Shown: positions 21,335 to 35,890, counted from the stretch's first letter. The stretch: 64,000 nucleotides of DNA from Candidatus Fimenecus excrementigallinarum (GCA_018714805.1 DVMW01000012.1:1-64000), one strand, 5' to 3'. Notes: generated from the letters alone by a model not told the origin. Numbers and translations are program-made.

Positions 21335-21973
21335 ATGAAGGAAAACCTGAAAAGGCTGTTTACCGGGTGCTGGACGGTGCCGAATCTGCTGTCGCTGATT
21401 CGCATTTTGCTGATTCCCGTGTTCGGTGTGCTGTTTTATAACGGCGAGGCGCTGTGGGCGGTGGTCGTGCTCATTTTGTCGGGGCTTACCGACCTGTTTG
21501 ACGGCAAAATTGCGCGCCGCTTTAACCAGATAAGCGAGCTCGGCAAAATTCTCGACCCCATTGCGGACAAGCTCACGCAGATTACCATTGCGATTGTGAT
21601 TTTCCTGGTGCTGGACAAGTCGCAGGACCCGACCATGCAGTGGTTCAAATGGGTGTTCCTGTTCTTCCTGTTTAAGGAGCTGCTCATGATTCTCGGCGGC
21701 GCGGTGATGCTTGCCGTCGGACTGCGGCCGGGCGCGGCGGAAATTTACGGCAAGGTCGCGACCTTCGTGTTTTACGGCGTCATGGTCGTCGTGCTGGCGT
21801 TCGGGCCGGAGGTCGGCGCGCTGTGCAGCTGGTTCACGCTGCCCAAGCCCGTGATGATTGGGCTTGTTATCCTGTCTGCGGCGCTTACGTTTGTGGCGCT
21901 GCTCAGCTACATACCCGGCACCTTCCGTCAATTCAAGGAAAAGAAGCAAAAGGCAAAGGAACCGAAAGAATGA
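21335..21973 (+). CDS. pgsA: CDP-alcohol phosphatidyltransferase (PgsA-like)
   Basis: CDP-alcohol motif 'TDLFDGKIARRFNQISELGKILDPIADK'. Confidence 0.88.
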   Translation: MKENLKRLFTGCWTVPNLLSLIRILLIPVFGVLFYNGEALWAVVVLILSGLTDLFDGKIARRFNQISELGKILDPIADKLTQITIAIVIFLVLDKSQDPTMQWFKWVFLFFLFKELLMILGGAVMLAVGLRPGAAEIYGKVATFVFYGVMVVVLAFGPEVGALCSWFTLPKPVMIGLVILSAALTFVALLSYIPGTFRQFKEKKQKAKEPKE

Positions 21974-24318
21974 ACAAAGGTATGCTGTGCAGCCGGTGCC
22001 ATAAGAATCCGGCGGTGTTTTTCATCTCGCGGATGGAGGGGGAGAAAACCATCAACGAGGGCCTGTGCATCAAATGCGCGATGGAGCTGAACATCGGCCC
22101 CATTAAGCAGATGATGGAGCAAATGGGCATTACGGAAGAGGAAATGAAAGAGGCTGCCGAGCAAATGGAGCAGATGATGGAGAATGCGGACGGCTACGAG
22201 GGCTTCCAGCCCGGCGGGGCGCTGCCGCTCTCCTTCATGCAAAGCCTGTTCCCGGGCGCGGGCGCCGACAAGGCGGAGGAGGAAGACGGCGACCGCATCG
22301 ACCCGTCCGAGGTCAGCGTCGTCGGCGAGCCGACCAAAGGCCCCGCGGCGCAGAAGGGGAAAAGCAAGAACCAGAAAAAGCGGAAATTCCTAACGCTGTA
22401 CTGCACGGACCTCACCGAGCGCGCGCGCGGCGGGCAGTTGGACCGCATCGTCGGGCGCGACCGGGAAATTTACCGGACGATTCAGATTCTCTGCCGCCGG
22501 ACGAAAAACAACCCCTGCCTTATCGGCGAACCCGGCGTCGGCAAAACCGCCATTGCGGAGGGTCTCGCGCAAAAGATTGCGGCGGGGAAGGTGCCGGCGA
22601 AGCTCGCCGACAAGGAAATCCACCTGCTCGATTTGACCGCTTTGGTTGCCGGCACGCAGTTCCGCGGGCAGTTTGAAAGCCGCATCAAGGGGCTGATTGA
22701 CGAGGTCAAGGCCGAGGGCAACATCATCCTGTTTATCGACGAGGTGCACAACCTTGTCGGGACGGGCGACGCCGAGGGGACGATGAACGCGGCGAACATT
22801 TTGAAGCCGGCGCTGTCCCGCGGCGAGATTCAGGTTATCGGGGCGACGACCTTCAACGAGTACCGCCAGCATATAGAAAAGGACGCGGCGCTGGAGCGCC
22901 GGTTCCAGCCGGTCAAGGTCGAGGAGCCGTCGGTCGAGGACGCGTACCAGATTTTGCTCGGGATTAAAAGCTATTACGAAAATTACCACCGCGTGCGCAT
23001 TTCCGACTCGCTGGTCCGCAAGGCGGTCATGCTGTCCGAGCGGTATATTACGGACCGCTTTTTGCCGGATAAGGCCATAGACCTTTTGGACGAGGCCTGC
23101 ACGAACGCGAACCTGCGCAACAAGGCCATCAGCGATTACGAGCTGTTTTTGCGGCACAAGGAAGCGCTGAAGGCCCGGGAGGAGGCGCTGGTCACCGCCG
23201 CGGAGACCGAGAACGACGAGCAGAAGAAAAACGCGAACTACGCGTCCCTGGCCCAGGTGCGCTCGGAGCTGCTTGTCTGCGACCAGAAGGAGCCCGCCCT
23301 GCGGGAAAAGGCCGACGACAATTATGTGACCGAGGAGGATTTGGCGCGGGTTATTAACCTTTGGACGGGGATTCCGACGACCAAAATCGTCGAAGGCGAC
23401 GTCAAGCGCCTTGTGGGGCTTGAGGACCGCTTAAAGGCGCATCTTATCGGGCAGGACGAGGCGGTGGACTTGGTTTCCGCCGCGATTCGCCGCAGCCGCA
23501 TCCAGCTGTCCGTTCAAAAGCGTCCCGCGTCGTTCATCTTCGTCGGGCCCACGGGCGTGGGCAAAACCGAGCTTGTCAAGCTGCTTTCCAAGGAGCTGTT
23601 CGACACGCCCGAAACGCTTATCCGGCTTGATATGTCGGAATTTATGGAAAAGCATTCCGTCTCGCGGCTTATCGGCTCGCCGCCCGGCTACGTGGGCTAC
23701 GACGAGGCCGGCCAGCTGACGGAAAAGGTGCGCCGCAAGCCGTATTCGGTTATCCTGTTTGACGAGATTGAAAAGGCGCACCCGGACGTGATGAACATCC
23801 TTTTGCAAATTTTGGACGAGGGCAAGACGAACGACGCGCACGGGCGCACCGTCAGCTTCGCGAACACCGTTATCATCATGACCTCCAACGCCGGCAGCGA
23901 CCGGCAGGGCGGGGCCCTGGGCTTCGGCAAGGCGCCGGGCGACGTCAAAAAAGAACAGGCCTTAAAGGCGCTGCGCGAATTTCTGCGGCCGGAATTTTTG
24001 GGCCGTGTCGATGAAATTGTCGTGTTCAACGAGCTGACCGAAGAGAATTACTGCGAAATCGCCGCCCTGATGCTCGGCGAGCTGCAGGAGGCCCTGCGCG
24101 ACAAGGGGATTGCGCTAAGCTTTGCGCCGGAGGTGCCGAAGCTGCTGGTTTCCAAAATGGACGGCAACGTCCGCGGTGCGCGCGATTTGCGCAACGTCAT
24201 CCGCCGCGAGGTGGAGGACCGGCTTTCAACGTACCTTGTCGAGCACGTGGACGACCACGCCTCCGCCTTGCGCCTTGCGGAGCGCGGCGGCGAGGTTGCC
24301 CTCGAGCTGGACGCGTAA
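21970..24318 (+). CDS. Clp-family AAA+ ATPase with N-terminal zinc-ribbon-like CxxC pairs (ClpE-like)
   Basis: 'CSRCHKNPAVFFISR...CIKCAMEL'; two AAA modules 'GEPGVGKTAIAEGLAQKI' and 'GPTGVGKTELVKLLSKELF'; ATGA overlap with pgsA. Confidence 0.88.
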   Translation: MNKGMLCSRCHKNPAVFFISRMEGEKTINEGLCIKCAMELNIGPIKQMMEQMGITEEEMKEAAEQMEQMMENADGYEGFQPGGALPLSFMQSLFPGAGADKAEEEDGDRIDPSEVSVVGEPTKGPAAQKGKSKNQKKRKFLTLYCTDLTERARGGQLDRIVGRDREIYRTIQILCRRTKNNPCLIGEPGVGKTAIAEGLAQKIAAGKVPAKLADKEIHLLDLTALVAGTQFRGQFESRIKGLIDEVKAEGNIILFIDEVHNLVGTGDAEGTMNAANILKPALSRGEIQVIGATTFNEYRQHIEKDAALERRFQPVKVEEPSVEDAYQILLGIKSYYENYHRVRISDSLVRKAVMLSERYITDRFLPDKAIDLLDEACTNANLRNKAISDYELFLRHKEALKAREEALVTAAETENDEQKKNANYASLAQVRSELLVCDQKEPALREKADDNYVTEEDLARVINLWTGIPTTKIVEGDVKRLVGLEDRLKAHLIGQDEAVDLVSAAIRRSRIQLSVQKRPASFIFVGPTGVGKTELVKLLSKELFDTPETLIRLDMSEFMEKHSVSRLIGSPPGYVGYDEAGQLTEKVRRKPYSVILFDEIEKAHPDVMNILLQILDEGKTNDAHGRTVSFANTVIIMTSNAGSDRQGGALGFGKAPGDVKKEQALKALREFLRPEFLGRVDEIVVFNELTEENYCEIAALMLGELQEALRDKGIALSFAPEVPKLLVSKMDGNVRGARDLRNVIRREVEDRLSTYLVEHVDDHASALRLAERGGEVALELDA

Positions 24319-26591: not shown

Positions 26592-26745
26592 CCGTTGCGC
26601 GCAAAACCCGCAAAAAGCCGCGCAAAGGTAAAAAACTGTACGAAAAAGCCCCCGGTTTGCCCCTTTTTTCCGCCGCAACGCGGCGGGATGTGTAAAAAAA
26701 CGCAAGGTGTACTCTGCCAGCATATAGAAAAAATGTTTTGGATTC

Positions 26746-26772
26746 CCTATAATATTTTTATCCTATAGTATT
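26746..26772 (+). promoter_or_regulatory. -10-like tandem direct repeat upstream of the cohesin locus
   Basis: CCTATAATATT and CCTATAGTATT, 16 bp apart, just before the RBS/ATG at 26784. Confidence 0.4.
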
Positions 26773-26783
26773 CGAGGGATAAA

Positions 26784-29225
26784 ATGAAAAAGATACTTTG
26801 CATCATCCTTTCCTGTCTTATGATTTTCTCTGCGGGGGCGCTTGGCATTTCAGCGCTGGACAGCGGGCGGACTGTTGCCGGTGCGCCTACTGTTTTTGCA
26901 GAGGACCTTACAGTGAACGCAGGCGATATTCTGCGTGTTCCGGTCCAAATCAAAGACAACACCGGCATTATGGGCTGGATGCTGTCGTTCGATTACGATA
27001 CGGACTTTCTGACGCCGCTCACGGTGGAGTACGGGGAAGTAATCAGCAGCGGGGTTCAGGACAATATCGAGGGCAACATGGTCCCGGGCAGCATCAATGT
27101 GTATTGGGCCGGCTACAACAACGCGGTGTACAACGGCATTATGATTTATATCAATTTTGCCGTTAATGCCGCCGCTGTTGGGGACACAACCATTGACATT
27201 TCCTTTTCGCAGCCGGACACCTTTGACGGGTACTTTAACGACGTCTATCTGAATTGCGAGCCCATCAACGTTTCCATTACAAACGCCGGGTATTCGCAGT
27301 ATGCGAAAGTCAACGCTTCTGCGCAGGACGTTGTGGCCGGTGAAGAGGTGCAGCTTTCGCTGAACCTGTCGGAAATCAACGGCGTGACGGAAGCGGACGT
27401 AGATGTGGAGTACAACGCCGCCAACTTTGCTTTTGAAACGGCTGTATCCGACGGCGTGCAGGTTGAAAGCACAGCTTCCGACGGCCGGGTGAGCCTGCGG
27501 ATTTCCGGCATTACGACGGCGGTAAACAATACAGATTGCATTACCCTGCGGTTTAAGTGCAAAGACAAGGCGATGGCGGGAAGCTACGATTTTGTGTTGT
27601 CCTCGCCGACGGAAGGCGTGCTGTGTAAAGGGTGCAGTATCCAAGTGTCTCCGTCTGCGACCAGCGCAATTGCCGAAATTTATGCCGAAGACATAGAGGG
27701 CGTGCATAATGACGTCGTCACCATTCCCGTCCGCATTGCAAACAACCACGGCATTATGGGATACAGACTTCGGTTTTCGTTTGATGCAGAGCTGCTTGAG
27801 CCGGTGAGTGCTACAGTAGGGGATATCAAGGGCTACAGCTTTGCGACCAATATCGGCCTAAACAGCGGCAGGTTTGATGCGCTGTGGGTGAATACGGAAA
27901 ACATTATCCAAGACGGCGTGCTGTTCAATATGACGTTTCGCATCCTGACGGACAAGACCGTGGATACGTCTATTGCCGTCAGCTACAGTCAGGAGGATAC
28001 GTTCAACGAGAGTTGGGAGGATGTTATATTTGCTTGCCGGGATATTTCGCTGTCGCTGAATCCGCATCAGCACAGCTACACGGCAACGGTCACACCGCCG
28101 ACCTGTACGGAAAAAGGCTATACGACATATACCTGCTCGTGCGGTGATAAGTATGTCGCGGATGAGGTCGACCCGCTGGGCCACCAATGGGGCGAATATA
28201 GCAGCAACAACGACGCGACCTTTGACGCCGACGGGACAAAGACGGCCGTCTGCTCCGTTTGCGGAGCGACGGACACGGTTGCGGACGTTGGCTCGCAGCT
28301 TGCGCGGGACCCGGATTTGTGCATCAAAACCGTGTCGTTGTCGCTGCAAAGCAGCTTTAAAATAAATTTCAAAGTCCCAAGGAGCGCGCTCACCGGATAT
28401 ACGTCCCCGTACATGGTGTTCCGTTGCGAAGACCTGGACGAAATGACGGTCACGGACTATACCGAGCAGGGAGAGTATTACGTATTTTCGTTCCCGGGCA
28501 TTTCCCCGAAAATGATGAATAACGTCGTTACGGCGCAAGCATATGCAACCAATCCGGAGGACGGGCGGCTGTACGCGAGCGAGCCGCGGACCATGAGCGT
28601 GCGGCAATACGCGTACAAAATGCTGGAGCTTTACGCCGACGATGCTACGGCGCAGGCAGGCAAGCTGAAAACGCTGCTTGTGGATATGCTGCACTACGGC
28701 GCTAAGGCGCAGATGTATACGGATTACCAGACGGACGCGTTAGTGGACGCAGACCTAAGCGATGCACAGAAGGCGTGGGGGACCGCCGTCACGCCGGAGC
28801 TTTCGAGCATTACGGACGCGAGCTATATTCCTATTGATAACCCGACCGTGCAATGGTCAGCGGCTGGCCTTGTGCTGAATGATTCGGTAAAAATCCGGGC
28901 AAAATTCACGGCGGAAAAAGCGGAAAACCTGACCGTGCAGATAGCCTGCGCCGGACGCACGTATACCTACGGCCCGGAGGATTTTGTATCGAACGGCGAC
29001 GGCAGCTACTATGTATATTGCAACGAAATCAAGGCGCATCAAATGAGCGAAGAAATTTTGCTGACCGCGTATGAAAACGGCGTGCAATGCAGCGACACCA
29101 TGCGGTTCAGCGTGGAATCCTATGCCAAAGCGGTCCAAAACAGCGAATTCGCCGGGACCGCGCTCGACAATCTGACACAGGCAATGATGTGCTACGGCAA
29201 ATCTGCCGAAGCGTACGGCATATAA
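26784..29225 (+). CDS. secreted multi-cohesin protein (scaffoldin-like) with CxCG module and duplicated C-terminal domain
   Basis: Signal peptide; cohesin-like modules 26889-27281, 27303-27647 (divergent) and 27675-28058; 'PTCTEKGYTTYTCSCGDKYV...CSVCGATD' 28065-28298; no C-terminal TM or LPXTG. Confidence 0.75.
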   Translation: MKKILCIILSCLMIFSAGALGISALDSGRTVAGAPTVFAEDLTVNAGDILRVPVQIKDNTGIMGWMLSFDYDTDFLTPLTVEYGEVISSGVQDNIEGNMVPGSINVYWAGYNNAVYNGIMIYINFAVNAAAVGDTTIDISFSQPDTFDGYFNDVYLNCEPINVSITNAGYSQYAKVNASAQDVVAGEEVQLSLNLSEINGVTEADVDVEYNAANFAFETAVSDGVQVESTASDGRVSLRISGITTAVNNTDCITLRFKCKDKAMAGSYDFVLSSPTEGVLCKGCSIQVSPSATSAIAEIYAEDIEGVHNDVVTIPVRIANNHGIMGYRLRFSFDAELLEPVSATVGDIKGYSFATNIGLNSGRFDALWVNTENIIQDGVLFNMTFRILTDKTVDTSIAVSYSQEDTFNESWEDVIFACRDISLSLNPHQHSYTATVTPPTCTEKGYTTYTCSCGDKYVADEVDPLGHQWGEYSSNNDATFDADGTKTAVCSVCGATDTVADVGSQLARDPDLCIKTVSLSLQSSFKINFKVPRSALTGYTSPYMVFRCEDLDEMTVTDYTEQGEYYVFSFPGISPKMMNNVVTAQAYATNPEDGRLYASEPRTMSVRQYAYKMLELYADDATAQAGKLKTLLVDMLHYGAKAQMYTDYQTDALVDADLSDAQKAWGTAVTPELSSITDASYIPIDNPTVQWSAAGLVLNDSVKIRAKFTAEKAENLTVQIACAGRTYTYGPEDFVSNGDGSYYVYCNEIKAHQMSEEILLTAYENGVQCSDTMRFSVESYAKAVQNSEFAGTALDNLTQAMMCYGKSAEAYGI

Positions 29226-29246
29226 AACGGAAAGGGAGTGTGCAGC

Positions 29247-29384
29247 ATGAACAAAAAAGCGTATGAGACGCCGCTGGCGGAGATTACCGTTTTTGAAACG
29301 GAGGATATCATCACGACGTCTCCGGGAATGGGCGGCGAGATTGAATTGCCCGACTTGGATTTAGACTTGTTTATCACCCCCTGA
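29247..29384 (+). CDS. 45-aa small peptide MNKKAYETPLAEITVFETEDIITTSPGMGGEIELPDLDLDLFITP
   Basis: Complete ORF absent from the supplied track; RBS AAAGGGAG 7-9 nt upstream; same strand, between two cohesin/dockerin genes. Confidence 0.6.
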   Translation: MNKKAYETPLAEITVFETEDIITTSPGMGGEIELPDLDLDLFITP

Positions 29385-29473
29385 CGAAAACGTGGGACGA
29401 GGACACCCAGCGGCAAGAACCCCTGACAAAACAAGCGCAGACAAATGACTTCGCAAGGTTTGGGAGGAAAAAG

Positions 29474-32400
29474 ATGAAAAAGAATTTCGGCAAAAAACTG
29501 ATTTCCCTGTTTTTTGCGGTGCTGATGCTGGTTTCCGTAATACCCGCGGGAACCATTACGGCAAGCGCGGCTACATTTACGCCAAGACTTACGGCGCCCG
29601 CTAAAAGCGGATGGTATGCTGGCTACAATCGAAATAACTGTGGGAAATATGCGCAATGTAGAATTAACGAAATTGTTGGACAAGCAATAATAACAAGGAC
29701 TGGTCCGTCAACAATAAAAAGTGAATTAATTGCCCATGGCTACTCTAGCGGAAAGGTTCCTAAAGTGGGGGCGGTGGCAATAAATAGTGGCCACGTAGCT
29801 ATCGTAGAAAAAATTGAAAATGGTCATGTCTATATGAGCGAGGGACATTATTCATATCCGTATAATGTTGGGTATGACGTGACTAACCTAGGATATTCCT
29901 ATCAAAATACTGTAAGAATTGGCCCCGGAAACACACCACAATGGGGAACAGCTGGATCTGGTTATGGCTATGGAACATGGTTTACTTTACGCCGATATGA
30001 TGATTATTCCAGTTTTACCTTTTATTACTTATTAGATAGCAACGTGGTAATAAAAGAGGATGATGAATATAACCCCAACGCAAAATACGATATCGGAACA
30101 TACAAATGCACCTATCGGCAAGGCGTAAATATGCGTTCCACGCCGAACACGAATTATAGCTCCATCGGGAGTGTGCCGTACAACTGGGATATTTACGTGT
30201 GGGAAACGGATGGAAACTGGGGCTACGGTCAGTTTGCCGGCGTTCAGGGCTGGGTCTGCCTGGATTACTTTACCAAGGTCAGCATCCCGATTCCGGCAAC
30301 ACCGTCCATTGGCTCGGTAAGCGCCGAAGACCTCGCCGTCGGCAAAACCGTCACCATCAGCTGGAACGCCGTCAGCGGGGCGGACAGCTACACGGTCGGT
30401 ATCCGCAGCGACCATGTCAACCAGGATGTTACCGTCGGCAATGCCACGTCCTTCAGCTTTAAGCTTTCATATCCGGAAACCTATCAGTTCTATGTAAAGG
30501 CCTCGAACGTTTCGGGCGCGAGCAACTGGTCGTCACCGCGCAGCAGCACGGCGCATGACCCGGTCACGGTCACGTTTGTGGACTGGGACGATACGGTTTT
30601 GCATACGCAAACGGTCGATTACGGCGAAAGCGCCACGGCGCCGTCTGCGCCTCTGCGCAAGGGGTATACCTTCCAGACGTGGAGCGACTCCTATTTTGAC
30701 GTAACGACGGATAAAACCATTCGGGCAATTTATAAGATTGACACCTATACCGTCAATTTCTTTGATAAGGACGGTATCCTCTTAAGCAGTCAGAAGGTGA
30801 CCTACGGCAGCGATGCCACACCGCCGAGCGATACGCACGCGACAAGTTCCTATAAGTTTATGGGCTGGAGCAGCATGGCGTATCTGGATGTATATACCGA
30901 CAGGGCGGACAAGAACATCAATATTGACGGGATTTACTCGTGGTACAATTACGACCTGCCCACGGTTTGCAAAATCACATCCGCCACGCGCCAGTTTGAC
31001 GGGTATTATGTGACCTTTGACATTGAAAACAACGATTCCACCCCCACCACCGGCCGCGCCGTCGTGGCGCTGAAAACGGCGGAGGGCAAGCTGGTGGACA
31101 TGACGGAATCCACGGCGTTCAGCATCCCCGCCGCAGGGACGAAAAACGGCGTCGAGGTCTTTATTCCCTGCAACAAGATTGCGTCCACCATTGAGGTGTT
31201 CATGGTCGCGGACTACGCCTCGGGCGTCCCGATTTCCCCGAGCGTCACCAGCGAGATTGAAGAAGGCTTGATGTACGCGGAATCCACCGTTAAGCCCGAC
31301 AATCCGGACGGCACGCTGGACATCCAGGAGGTCACGCAGTACAGATATAGAGATAAAGAGTTTTCCACCGGCAACACAAAAATAAAAGACGGCTGGGAGT
31401 ATACGGGAAATCGAACGGAAACCGTCGGCAGCTGGACGGGCTGGAGTTGGACCGCAGTCTCGCCCTTTGATACCGAAAGCACAAGACGAGAGACAGACCA
31501 GCAAACCGTTGTAGTTTCACAGAATTATAAAACGCAGTACAACTATACGCGTTATGCCAACAGTACCTACTCGTGGTTCGGTCCGTGCGCCGGCACGTGG
31601 AACGGCAAATGGTGCGGCAATTATCAGGAATGGGGCTGGCACGACTATGGCCTGCCTTATGTCAAAACAACGTGGAGCAACCAGTACGGCGGCAATTACA
31701 ATCTGTACAACAGCTCAAGTGACCCTTGGTACAACGAAACGACCCGCAGTGTGGTTGCCTCCACCAATTACGGCACGCAGTACCGCTACCGCGACATTAC
31801 CTATGTCTATCATTTCTATCGCTGGGGCGTGTGGAGTGACTGGAGCGACACACAGGTTACGGCTACCGAGAATCGCGATGTACAGACCCGGACGATTTAC
31901 CGCTATAAAAGCAACGATATTCAGCCGGAGGACACCTCGGGCGAAGTCAGAACGGTAAGCGGAACGGTGGACAGCGCGCTGGCCGGTAAGCAGATTACGC
32001 TGTATGTGTATGGCTATACGGGCGCGTCGGACTACACGAACCAGTACATCGGACAATCCACCGTGGGCGAGGACGGCTCCTATTCGTTCGAGTTTAAGCT
32101 GCGTGAAGAGCCGACCGTTGAATCGGGCGATTACACCATCGCCATCGGGCTGGAAGGCTCAACCAACACGACCGTGATTGGCACCATCGAAGCCCCGCTC
32201 CCGACCTACACGGTCAATTTCTATGACTGGGACGGCACCATCATCAGCACGCAGACCGTCCGAGAGGGCGAGGACGCCGTCCTTCCCGAAAATCCCGAAA
32301 AGGAAGGCTATGATTTCCTCGGCTGGGATAAGAGCGTTGCGAACATCCGGGAGGATACCGATTTCTTTGCTGATTTTGCCAAGAAAGAGTTTACGGTCAT

Positions 32401-34684
32401 CTTTGTGGACTGGTACAACCAGCAAATCGCCGTTAAGACATTTGCATATGGGGACTCGCTCATTGCGCCGGAGGCTGAAGCGATTGAAGGCTATACCTTT
32501 GCCGGCTGGGATTGCGAAGACACCATCGTAACCCAAAATATGATTGTTTCCGCGCAGTATGAGGCCAATCAATATGAGATTACCTTCTACGACTGGAACA
32601 ACCAGGTTATTGATTCGCAGAAGGTCAGCCACGGCGGGACGGCAATTGTCCCGGACGACCCGGAAGAGGACGGCGTGATTTTTGCGGAATGGTTCAATCC
32701 GGAGGATTACCAGTATGTAGAGCACGACGCCGCGATTTATCCCACCTACTATTTTGAGGAAACAACGGACGTCGTGACCGCAAATTACGGCACCGGCGAG
32801 TATGACACAGCGCTGCAGCTTGAGCTGACCACCTCGGATGAAAACGCGGTAATCTTCTACTATTTCAACGGGGACCAGGATACCGAGCGAATGTATACCG
32901 GGCCATTTACGATTGACAAAACCTGCTCGGTCACCTACTATGCGACCTGCATCGGCAAAAATGACGGCGAGGTCAGTATAAGCTATTACTGCATCAATAC
33001 GGGCGACACTCCGAGCGACTGGATGCTGTATTCCGAATTGCCGGAGAACGTCACGGAGAACCTGGACGATTATACGCTGGAAACCGCAGCGGGATACAAA
33101 TACAAGGACGTGCAGCAAACCTCGTCGTCCGAGGAGGCGCAAAGCCTCGCGGCCGGCGGCTGGACGCTGGGCGGCACGACGTATACGGCGTATACCGATT
33201 GGCAGGATGAGGAAATCACGGTCGACGGCAGCCTGCTGGGCTTTGAGGTCGATACGCGGCAAACAAGCGATTCTTCTGTCAAATTGTATCAATACTCGCA
33301 CTACAAGTACACCGACGCCGACGGCGTTGTGCAATATGCGCCCGCCGCGGTAGAGGGCTTTGCTTGTGAGCGCGAGACGATAACGCTGGATGACCGGCTC
33401 ACAATCGCCGGCTTTACGGAGGACAATGTCAGCTTCTACCATTACGACGGTCAGGTGTGGTACAACCAGACGCGTGTAAACGGCCAGAAAACACAATACC
33501 GTTCGCGTTACCAGGTTGCCGAATACTACAAGTGGACGGATTGGGTGCTGGATGCGCCGGCCGCCGGGGATACGCGCGAGTATCAAACGGAGGATGTGTA
33601 CCGATACGCCAATAAGAATTATCATTTGGTTTACATCAACATCTACGGCGAAGTTTTACTGGTAGAAGAAGGCAAAACAATCGATATAACGCAGCTGGAT
33701 AATATTGAAGGCTATGACCTTGTCGGGCTGTATTATGACGAGGACCTCGACGAGCCGTTTGACACCTCTACAGAAATAACGGAGAGCGTTACGTTATTTA
33801 CAAGGTACACGCCTAAACAATACACCGTTACGTTCCTGATGCAGGATGGAACCGAGCTGGATGTCCAAACGGTTGCTTATCTCGAAGCCGCGACCGCGCC
33901 TGCGACGGATGTGGTTCCCGGATACGTCTTCGGCGGCTGGGACAAGGATTTCAGCTGCATTACAGAGGATATCGTTGTTACCGGCACGTATTACAAAGAG
34001 TCTGAGTATGCGCGCGTAGCGCTGGACCGTATTTCCGCGGATTTGTATCAGGGCACCTCGACTGTCTTGGTCCCTACGATTACGCCGAGCAACTTAAGCG
34101 GCGAGGCTTTGGAGTGGGCCACCAGCGACCCCGGGGTTGTATCTGTCGATGAAACCGGCCGGATTACCGCCGTGTCGCCGGGCTCTGCAACGATTACGGT
34201 CACGGTTATCAGCAATAGAGAAACGGCCAGCTGTACGGTTACCGTTACACCGGACAAGAACAACTTCATCCTTCTGAAATCCGATTCCTCGTTAAACTAC
34301 GACGCTTTGGGTTACTTAAGAAGGGTAGAGTTCAATACAACCGCAAGTGCGCTGGCGGAAGAATTCGCAAACGACAACCTCAGGTTCTTTAACATCAACG
34401 GAAAAGAACTCGCAGAAACAGATGTTGTCGGAACCGGGACGATAGTCAGATTGTATAACGGAGACAGCATTGCGGATGCAAAAACGCTGGTCGTTACCGG
34501 CGACGTTACCGGGGACGGCATCATCAACAACCGCGATGTGGCGATGATGAACGGGCTCCTGTTGGGTACGGTAACGGCTCAGGAGTGCCAGCAGCTTGCC
34601 TTCGACGTTAACGGGGACGGCTATGTGAATAACCGCGACGCTGCGATGGTCTCAAGGTATCTCGTAGGCAAAGACGCATTTTAA
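29474..34684 (+). CDS. 1736-aa secreted CHAP-SH3b-Fn3-like-InlB repeat-Big2-dockerin protein
   Basis: Signal peptide; CHAP-like 'NCGKYAQCRINEIVG...GHVAIVEKIENGHVYMSEGHYS'; SH3b 'GVNMRSTPNTNYSSIGSVPYNWDIYVWETDGNWGYGQFAGVQGWV'; InlB-type 'YTFAGWD' repeats; Big2; C-terminal dockerin; GGAGG RBS. Confidence 0.85.
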   Translation: MKKNFGKKLISLFFAVLMLVSVIPAGTITASAATFTPRLTAPAKSGWYAGYNRNNCGKYAQCRINEIVGQAIITRTGPSTIKSELIAHGYSSGKVPKVGAVAINSGHVAIVEKIENGHVYMSEGHYSYPYNVGYDVTNLGYSYQNTVRIGPGNTPQWGTAGSGYGYGTWFTLRRYDDYSSFTFYYLLDSNVVIKEDDEYNPNAKYDIGTYKCTYRQGVNMRSTPNTNYSSIGSVPYNWDIYVWETDGNWGYGQFAGVQGWVCLDYFTKVSIPIPATPSIGSVSAEDLAVGKTVTISWNAVSGADSYTVGIRSDHVNQDVTVGNATSFSFKLSYPETYQFYVKASNVSGASNWSSPRSSTAHDPVTVTFVDWDDTVLHTQTVDYGESATAPSAPLRKGYTFQTWSDSYFDVTTDKTIRAIYKIDTYTVNFFDKDGILLSSQKVTYGSDATPPSDTHATSSYKFMGWSSMAYLDVYTDRADKNINIDGIYSWYNYDLPTVCKITSATRQFDGYYVTFDIENNDSTPTTGRAVVALKTAEGKLVDMTESTAFSIPAAGTKNGVEVFIPCNKIASTIEVFMVADYASGVPISPSVTSEIEEGLMYAESTVKPDNPDGTLDIQEVTQYRYRDKEFSTGNTKIKDGWEYTGNRTETVGSWTGWSWTAVSPFDTESTRRETDQQTVVVSQNYKTQYNYTRYANSTYSWFGPCAGTWNGKWCGNYQEWGWHDYGLPYVKTTWSNQYGGNYNLYNSSSDPWYNETTRSVVASTNYGTQYRYRDITYVYHFYRWGVWSDWSDTQVTATENRDVQTRTIYRYKSNDIQPEDTSGEVRTVSGTVDSALAGKQITLYVYGYTGASDYTNQYIGQSTVGEDGSYSFEFKLREEPTVESGDYTIAIGLEGSTNTTVIGTIEAPLPTYTVNFYDWDGTIISTQTVREGEDAVLPENPEKEGYDFLGWDKSVANIREDTDFFADFAKKEFTVIFVDWYNQQIAVKTFAYGDSLIAPEAEAIEGYTFAGWDCEDTIVTQNMIVSAQYEANQYEITFYDWNNQVIDSQKVSHGGTAIVPDDPEEDGVIFAEWFNPEDYQYVEHDAAIYPTYYFEETTDVVTANYGTGEYDTALQLELTTSDENAVIFYYFNGDQDTERMYTGPFTIDKTCSVTYYATCIGKNDGEVSISYYCINTGDTPSDWMLYSELPENVTENLDDYTLETAAGYKYKDVQQTSSSEEAQSLAAGGWTLGGTTYTAYTDWQDEEITVDGSLLGFEVDTRQTSDSSVKLYQYSHYKYTDADGVVQYAPAAVEGFACERETITLDDRLTIAGFTEDNVSFYHYDGQVWYNQTRVNGQKTQYRSRYQVAEYYKWTDWVLDAPAAGDTREYQTEDVYRYANKNYHLVYINIYGEVLLVEEGKTIDITQLDNIEGYDLVGLYYDEDLDEPFDTSTEITESVTLFTRYTPKQYTVTFLMQDGTELDVQTVAYLEAATAPATDVVPGYVFGGWDKDFSCITEDIVVTGTYYKESEYARVALDRISADLYQGTSTVLVPTITPSNLSGEALEWATSDPGVVSVDETGRITAVSPGSATITVTVISNRETASCTVTVTPDKNNFILLKSDSSLNYDALGYLRRVEFNTTASALAEEFANDNLRFFNINGKELAETDVVGTGTIVRLYNGDSIADAKTLVVTGDVTGDGIINNRDVAMMNGLLLGTVTAQECQQLAFDVNGDGYVNNRDAAMVSRYLVGKDAF
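29576..30085 (+). other. CHAP (amidase/endopeptidase) module within the 1736-aa protein
   Basis: Catalytic-type Cys in NCGKYAQCR and His in SGHVAIVEK. Confidence 0.7.
34493..34681 (+). other. type I dockerin module
   Basis: GDVTGDGIINNRDVAMMNGLLLG...FDVNGDGYVNNRDAAMVSRYLVG: two Ca-binding F-hand repeats. Confidence 0.92.
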
Positions 34685-34691
34685 CTTTACA

Positions 34692-34721
34692 AATCAGCCA
34701 CACTTTCGGGTGTGGCTGATT
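34692..34721 (+). terminator. perfect hairpin between the dockerin gene and the anchored-cohesin gene (terminator/attenuator or RNA-processing element)
   Basis: AATCAGCCACAC-TTTCGG-GTGTGGCTGATT, 12-bp perfect stem, weak 3' T-tract (GTTT). Confidence 0.55.
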
Positions 34722-34735
34722 GTTTCGAGGTGCAT

Positions 34736-35890
34736 ATGAAAAAAATCATGTCGGTCCTCTGGGCCATGCTTATCCTGCTTTGCGCCGCCTTTCCGGCATT
34801 TGGGGCGCAGACGCCCGCCGTATTTGCAGAAGACGTTCTCCTGACACCGGGCAGCGAAGCGACAATCCCGGTTCTTATTGAGGACAACGCCGGCCTGATG
34901 GGATTCAAAATAACGGTGGAATATCCGGTTGGCAAAATCAAAATCACTTCCGTGACCAAAGGCGAGGTAACCGGCAAGGGGAATTTCAACACGAATTTTG
35001 GTATCCATGACGGCAAATTTGACGTGCTTTGGAACCATGTGGAAGAGGTGCAATCAGACGGTACGCTGTTTGTGCTGACCGCGAGAGCGGTCGCGGATTT
35101 TACCGACCCTGCAGAGATAAAGCTGACCTTTAGCCAGGGGGATACGTTCAACGAAGCTTATGAAGACGTGGTGCTGAATTGCCGGAATATACAAGTCGGC
35201 CTTTCGGCTGCAGGCGCCTCCTCGCCGGAATCCGGCGCGCCCGAAGGCGGCAGTCAAAATCAAATTTCCTATCGAAACGAGGATGTTGTGGCAGTTGTTC
35301 AGGAAACCCTGCGGGCTTATGGTTACGATTCCATGCAGGAGGTTCGTCAAGACGAGCGAGATGCATTTTTGAATCAGGTTAACGCGCAGCTTTCTGTAAT
35401 ATCGGGCGGTACGTATGCGCCTGTCGACAATTATGAAAGTCTGGTGTCGCTGTACAACAGCGCCTATGAGGGCGTTTTTATCAGCGATGTGACGCAGGAA
35501 ATCCCCGGCAACGAAATCCAGCAGGCGATTCAAGATGCGCTCGACCGCGTCGGGGCGGCGACCTTGCAGGATTTACCCGAAGATAAACGGCAGGATTTTG
35601 TTGTGATACTGGAAGATAATTTAAACCAACACAGCGGCAATGTCGCGCAAATCTCAAAAGAAATCGGGACGGATGAAGCAATCGAAATAGCACAAAAATT
35701 AAGTGGGGCGCTTCAGTCTGCACCGACGCAGGCACCGGATGAGAACGGCGAAAACGAGCAAACCGGGAAAATTTGGATTCTTGTTGCAGCGCTGGCGGTT
35801 GTTGCAGCGGGTGCGGTATGCGTGATTGTCTTTTTCGTAAAAAAGAAAAAGGACAAAGCGCCGCGCGGCGAAAATCGGGAAAACGCGTGA
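34736..35890 (+). CDS. membrane-anchored cohesin protein (cohesin - duplicated helical stalk - TM - polybasic tail)
   Basis: Signal peptide; cohesin 'VFAEDVLLTPGSEATIPVLIEDNAGLMGFKITVEYP...TFSQGDTFNEAYEDVVLNCRNIQVGL'; TM 'ILVAALAVVAAGAVCVIVFFV' then KKKKDK. Confidence 0.82.
   Translation: MKKIMSVLWAMLILLCAAFPAFGAQTPAVFAEDVLLTPGSEATIPVLIEDNAGLMGFKITVEYPVGKIKITSVTKGEVTGKGNFNTNFGIHDGKFDVLWNHVEEVQSDGTLFVLTARAVADFTDPAEIKLTFSQGDTFNEAYEDVVLNCRNIQVGLSAAGASSPESGAPEGGSQNQISYRNEDVVAVVQETLRAYGYDSMQEVRQDERDAFLNQVNAQLSVISGGTYAPVDNYESLVSLYNSAYEGVFISDVTQEIPGNEIQQAIQDALDRVGAATLQDLPEDKRQDFVVILEDNLNQHSGNVAQISKEIGTDEAIEIAQKLSGALQSAPTQAPDENGENEQTGKIWILVAALAVVAAGAVCVIVFFVKKKKDKAPRGENRENA

Follow-up and report, generated by a model that had tools for sequence, protein, structure and literature searches.

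Cellulosomes and amylosomes, as described in Clostridium thermocellum, Ruminococcus flavefaciens and R. bromii, combine a cohesin scaffold, dockerin-bearing enzymes and a cell-surface cohesin, and dockerin-bearing wall hydrolases are already known inside cellulosomes. The R. flavefaciens protein RflaF_05439, composed of two NlpC/P60 modules and an X-dockerin, binds ScaE, and a role in cell-cell interaction has been suggested for it (PMC3573020); strain FD-1 has dockerin-bearing peptidases and transglutaminase-like proteins (PMC2930009). A 2019 review (PMC6403190) cites a lysozyme activity of the R. champanellensis cellulosome, and also names a hypothetical “lyticome”, a cohesin-dockerin complex for bacterial lysis; this is put forward there as a future concept, in a passage that describes no dedicated locus. 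The word was not met outside the review in the open-access literature searched, which does not cover most subscription papers. We report here on a four-gene locus of Candidatus Fimenecus excrementigallinarum, found in a stretch of 64,000 nucleotides (GCA_018714805.1 DVMW01000012.1:1-64000, hereafter the window), which looks like the first dedicated lyticome-type candidate in this same literature. Judging from sequences, it is best explained as a dedicated cohesin-dockerin module that would display, at the cell surface, a peptidoglycan hydrolase with an exchangeable head, most likely cutting the walls of other bacteria, an explanation to which we lean by a modest preference.

An earlier note on the window had described a same-strand cluster of four genes, and this cluster is real. 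All four open reading frames (ORFs) lie on the + strand where the note had placed them: a secreted scaffold, a peptide of 45 amino acids (aa), a 1736-aa protein with CHAP, SH3b, repeats and dockerin, called the lysin below, and a cohesin anchored by a transmembrane (TM) helix. The genes and the parts of the lysin are as follows.

26784–29225, + strand: secreted scaffold, 813 aa (Pfam Cohesin, E 6.4e-24, 3 stretches; alignment with relatives)
29247–29384, + strand: 45-aa peptide MNKKAYETPLAEITVFETEDIITTSPGMGGEIELPDLDLDLFITP (ATG at 29247; homologues in the modules of two relatives)
29474–34684, + strand: dockerin-bearing lysin, 1736 aa (Pfam, segment identities)
29573–30073, + strand: predicted exchangeable catalytic head CHAP-A, aa 34-200 (Pfam CHAP, 30.3 bits when trimmed; alignment)
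30086–30283, + strand: SH3b-type predicted wall-binding domain, aa 205-270 (PDB 2kq8, E 0.007; relatives)
30296–34498, + strand: stalk, with an FN3-like part (by eye), Flg_new repeats, a variable segment, CHB_HEX_C_1 and Big_2 (Pfam; segment identities)
31394–31783, + strand: variable stalk segment, aa 641-770 (segment identities)
34499–34663, + strand: type I dockerin, aa 1676-1730 (55.8 bits in the genome search, 49.8 in Pfam; alignment)
34736–35890, + strand: membrane-anchored cohesin, 384 aa (Cohesin 25.2 bits, cut-off 24.1; alignment)

Compared to cellulosomes and amylosomes, the cargo is here a predicted peptidoglycan hydrolase with an exchangeable head, a TM helix takes the place of LPXTG or SLH as the anchor, and the module contains a single dedicated cargo gene. 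RflaF_05439 resembles the lysin in having a papain-like domain of wall-hydrolase type and a dockerin, by which a cohesin holds it on the surface, but it is part of a large cellulosome, with no operon of its own and no long stalk, and head exchange has not been described for it. Of the multi-enzyme, bacteria-lysing complex envisaged as a “lyticome”, the locus has genes for a scaffold and a predicted lysin, the latter being the single catalytic cargo gene of the module.

The lysin alignment was scanned against 85,462 species genomes, and 24 loci were returned. Twenty of them were discarded, as they carry no cohesin and have only Flg_new-type repeats in common with the lysin; in one of these, L115, a separate fragment of a dockerin is present. 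The four true relatives are G019 (locus L111), L112, G010 (locus L113) and L114; a fifth and distant one, G187, was added by a search of 396 genomes of the order. In all six lysin loci, the window and five relatives, the lysin gene has as immediate same-strand neighbours the genes of a multi-cohesin scaffold and of a TM-anchored cohesin; in G187, the lysin gene even shares 4 bp with the scaffold gene. This synteny speaks for the dedicated assembly proposed in the earlier note.

Our main result came from comparing the lysins segment by segment. Identity to the lysin of the window was 94, 87, 86 and 72% over the core stalk, for G019, G010, L112 and L114 respectively, and 85, 74, 82 and 59% over the dockerin. 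Over the head, it was 89% for G019, and 17, 15 and 9% for the three others. G010 and L112, compared to each other, are 80-87% identical in their stalks and 16% in their heads; their nucleotide identity, 76% at first, is only about 25% past aa 40 and again 73% at aa 201, so that the borders are sharp, one just past the signal peptide and the other at the linker preceding SH3b. Five head types were found across the six loci. CHAP-A is common to the window and G019. A CHAP-B head in one relative scores 35.4 bits and matches the phage endolysin PHROG 635 (E 2.6e-15), and the head of another relative is made of Phage_lysozyme2 (108.9 bits) and Peptidase_M23 (66.4 bits). Two further segments vary. 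The SH3b of the window is 61% identical to that of G019, with flanks at 85-89%, and G019 and G010 are 81% identical over SH3b; the SH3b of the window has thus been replaced as well, relative to its closest relative. The stalk segment between aa 641 and 770 is a mosaic, with 20-33% identity to three of the four close relatives, for 63-87% in the neighbouring stalk. This exchange pattern, in which holder and stalk are kept while the predicted cutting tip is swapped among relatives, is new.

Lysozyme, M23 metallopeptidase and CHAP domains differ in fold but share peptidoglycan as their substrate. Because these unrelated wall-hydrolase folds occupy the same position on one stalk, peptidoglycan cutting is most likely the selected function, and this is the strongest evidence we have for it. 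The same observation, recognised wall-hydrolase folds of unrelated ancestry on a common stalk, upholds the idea that the dockerin partner is peptidoglycan-hydrolase-like. Phage endolysins and tail lysins likewise associate CHAP, lysozyme or M23 heads with SH3b, and swap catalytic and binding domains in a modular way; the protein described here differs in being long, secreted, dockerin-ended and encoded beside its sockets.

Binding, catalysis, surface location and target are what we infer from these data. The lysin would be exported, and its C-terminal dockerin would dock onto the cohesins of the scaffold and of the TM protein. The long stalk of Ig-like and Flg_new units would point outward, keeping head and SH3b at the tip, away from the cell, where the head would cut the walls of other bacteria on contact, for antagonism or scavenging. 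Action on other bacteria is favoured because the choice of the wall to be bound and cut would depend on the swapped parts, while the parts that are kept would fix the lysin to its producer; replacement of the catalytic and wall-binding parts therefore seems to point to other bacteria more than to self-remodelling. Alternatively, the docked hydrolase may be a self-directed autolysin that remodels the wall of the producer, for daughter-cell separation, growth or export sites, and that is held by the TM cohesin where membrane and wall meet. Such a cohesin would keep the enzyme near its own wall, SH3b domains are able to bind the wall of the producer, and no immunity gene was seen. A housekeeping enzyme should however retain its catalytic domain, yet the head is of five types in six loci. 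The distribution is also patchy, since the chassis is present in only three of the 37 members of the genus examined (the genome of the window, G019 and G010), and in 4 of the 396 genomes of the order sample. We regard the autolysin as rather unlikely, though worth keeping in mind.

Within the lysin of the window, CHAP was not reached under E 0.1 when the full-length protein was scanned with Pfam, and was detected only on the trimmed domain, at 30.3 bits for a cut-off of 26. Its motifs, with Cys in NNCGKYA, His in GHVAIVE and Glu in SEGHY, line up with those of canonical CHAP homologues from the same bacterial family, which score 50-56 bits, and the CHAP assignment of the earlier note is retained. 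A PHROGs search with this domain gave no match, and tblastn returned a single phage contig (36%, E 3e-6). The SH3b assignment is supported by 2kq8, a solved wall-hydrolase domain. In the rest of the protein, Pfam recognised Flg_new in six stretches, Big_2, CHB_HEX_C_1 and, as previously claimed, a C-terminal Dockerin_1, at 49.8 bits for a cut-off of 22.9. This dockerin is the top scorer of the seven in the genome, and both its calcium loops carry Asp/Asn ligands in the alignment. Positions 10 and 11 of the loops set specificity in cellulosome dockerins. In the lysin they are Asn-Arg in both loops, a pair that is seen in none of the six other dockerins of the genome, and that is kept in the four close relatives, except for Asn-Lys in the second loop of G010.

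A protein with a stalk of adhesin-type repeats and a variable stalk segment might also be an adhesin, used for cell-cell or host attachment, the head merely trimming the wall or processing the surface; cell-cell interaction is after all the role suggested for RflaF_05439 (PMC3573020). Against this, a hydrolase-like domain stands at the head position in every relative, including the lysozyme and M23 pair, and for that reason catalysis seems to be kept. Attachment as the main role is in our opinion improbable.

As for the sockets, cohesin modules had been claimed on both the scaffold and the TM protein, and both score above the Pfam cut-off of 24.1 bits: the scaffold reaches 85.2 bits over three stretches, and the TM protein is barely over, at 25.2. 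The scaffold consists of a signal peptide, cohesins 1 (aa 31-169), 2 (aa 170-293) and 3 (aa 293-430), a Cys-rich stretch and a C-terminal domain without assigned function. Alignment with the relatives indicates that cohesin 2 is divergent. The TM protein has a signal peptide, a cohesin (aa 23-160), a linker, a C-terminal TM helix and a KKKK tail, and is 50-70% identical in its cohesin to the counterparts in the five relatives. A signature, S-Q-x-D-T-F ... D-V ... C, is common to scaffold cohesins 1 and 3 and to the TM cohesin, and is missing from cohesin 2. These three, together with their counterparts in relatives, are far closer to each other than to three further cohesins of the genome included in the comparison. 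Scaffolds differ among relatives: that of L114 comprises five or more cohesins, with a weak dockerin-like stretch at its C-terminus (15.6 bits, under the cut-off), that of L112 has an additional N-terminal region, and that of G187 ends with a sortase-like SPATG tail.

This genome (1.87 Mb, 97% complete), in which seven dockerins were found and five cohesin places are listed, has cohesins and dockerins beyond those of the module. One may then ask whether this is an ordinary cellulosome locus in which the dockerin protein happens to be unusual. Its cohesins and dockerins are of the cellulosome type, further ones exist in the genome, and ruminococcal cellulosomes do include dockerin-bearing wall hydrolases (PMC6403190). 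The six other dockerin proteins of the genome, however, bear a cohesin with Flg_new repeats, SH3, Big_2, an alpha/beta hydrolase, Big_3 or no recognised enzyme domain. About 20 dockerin proteins sampled from three relatives have LRR, transglutaminase, Big_2/3, SH3, cohesin or alpha/beta hydrolase domains, or no second domain. No glycoside-hydrolase family was matched in either set, so that the many dockerin-bearing polysaccharidases by which the earlier note would have been refuted were not seen. Nor did the Pfam scan find on the scaffold any family of carbohydrate-binding modules, as would be expected in a cellulosome. As the sampled dockerin proteins match no glycoside-hydrolase family, we rejected the cellulosome explanation, which is largely refuted and now very improbable indeed, and the assembly is distinct from a cellulosome, as the earlier note had it.

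Other dockerin proteins were encountered on the way. Some 32 kb from the module and outside the window, a 3277-aa ORF (L013:9994-19827, G000:C1:67994-77827) combines an N-terminal dockerin (aa 232-288) with a cohesin (aa 2003-2106) and Flg_new repeats, has a sortase-like SPQTG at its end, and is possibly an anchored adaptor scaffold. At L014:12516-17419 (G000:C1:90516-95419), in the same genome, GHL10, an Amidase_3 N-acetylmuramoyl-L-alanine amidase and a 527-aa SH3_3-dockerin protein are encoded in a row, which makes another dockerin adjoining a wall hydrolase. A second cohesin/dockerin locus is widespread in the genus (L095, L096, L097, L101, L106, L109, L110 and others). It encodes two dockerin-ended proteins, a secreted one of about 1700 aa and another of about 350 aa, whose dockerins are sometimes near-identical within a locus (L095, L106), and the short peptide gene is close by. 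Finally, in another genus of the same family, a 327-aa protein of G160 with a signal peptide (L171, L174:12458-13441) resembles the lysin in its CHAP (56.5 bits), SH3_3 (34.3 bits) and Dockerin_1 (35.0 bits) Pfam matches, but it has no stalk, and no cohesin gene is present on its 17.6-kb contig.

Cohesins as such are normal in the group, since each of the 36 same-genus genomes examined has at least one cohesin match. The G010 stalk is nearer to that of L112, which belongs to another genus, than to those of its own genus, and a CarB gene flanking the G010 locus places the contig in its own genus (91% to G001). This is suggestive of a horizontal transfer of the module, and suggestive only, because divergence within the genus is itself so great (75% to G035, and 72% to the other genus). 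G187 is placed differently by the stalk tree and by the TM-cohesin tree, both of which contain few sequences.

Several observations weigh against a displayed lysin directed at other bacteria. One head is C39-like at a weak 17 bits, below the Pfam cut-off of 24, and the L112 head, called domain X, belongs to no Pfam family; an invariant Cys, GD..Q, His and YD are shared with its homologues elsewhere, and a PDB sequence search with it was uninformative. AlphaFold models are of low confidence, with a pLDDT of 35 for the L112 head alone and of 31 for CHAP and SH3b of the window (two sequences). The scaffold of the window lacks an evident wall anchor, neither a membrane nor a sortase anchor being seen, and there is no sign of a dedicated immunity gene. 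The exchange of heads could also result from drift in the chemistry of the producer's own wall, or from phage pressure. With these points in mind, we put only slightly under even weight on the most specific form of the proposal, namely a weapon of gut Clostridia in which head, wall-binding domain and stalk segment would be swapped by recombination, partly from phage lysins, so as to kill different neighbours on contact, the dockerin-cohesin pair remaining a constant mount.

Domain X (L112:8100-8600; L161-L164) is Cys-His-Asp hydrolase-like and also ends ricin-lectin proteins in other families. Elsewhere in the window, a single ORF (21823-24318) joins a ClpC-type ATPase to an N-terminal, Cys-rich McsA-like part (CSRCHKNPAV ... 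LCIKCAMEL).

In one relative, a close homologue of the 45-aa peptide occupies the same position; in another, it follows the TM cohesin. Within the available sequence, three of the six modules lack the peptide, which is therefore not essential to the design. The family to which it belongs (40-60 aa; window 29247-29384, loci L071-L110) has the motif Y-x-x-P-D-F ... E-D-I-I-T and no evident signal peptide, and is present in 42 of 60 related genomes (E up to 1), with 1 to 5 members per genome. A dockerin or cohesin gene lies at most 3 kb from the peptide in more than half of 39 neighbourhoods, these loci being partly orthologous and not independent events. The idea of a RiPP precursor was considered. 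Two possible expression signals were noted.

26725–26753, + strand: promoter-like site TAGAAA-17-TATAAT, 10 of 12 matches, 30 bp 5′ of the scaffold gene
34692–34721, + strand: perfect 12-bp inverted repeat between the lysin and anchor genes (z-score −5.9 against shuffles)

Promoter-like sites number 12 across the region for 9.2 expected, an excess that is not significant. The hairpin may possibly act as an attenuator lowering expression of the anchor.

If the displayed lysin is what we propose, the cohesin–dockerin pair, familiar as a mount of plant-fibre enzymes, would also be a dedicated platform for cell-wall lysins, and the locus would provide a concrete test case for the proposed “lyticome”. 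The relatives form a natural series, with different heads on like stalks, which would allow a direct comparison of target range.

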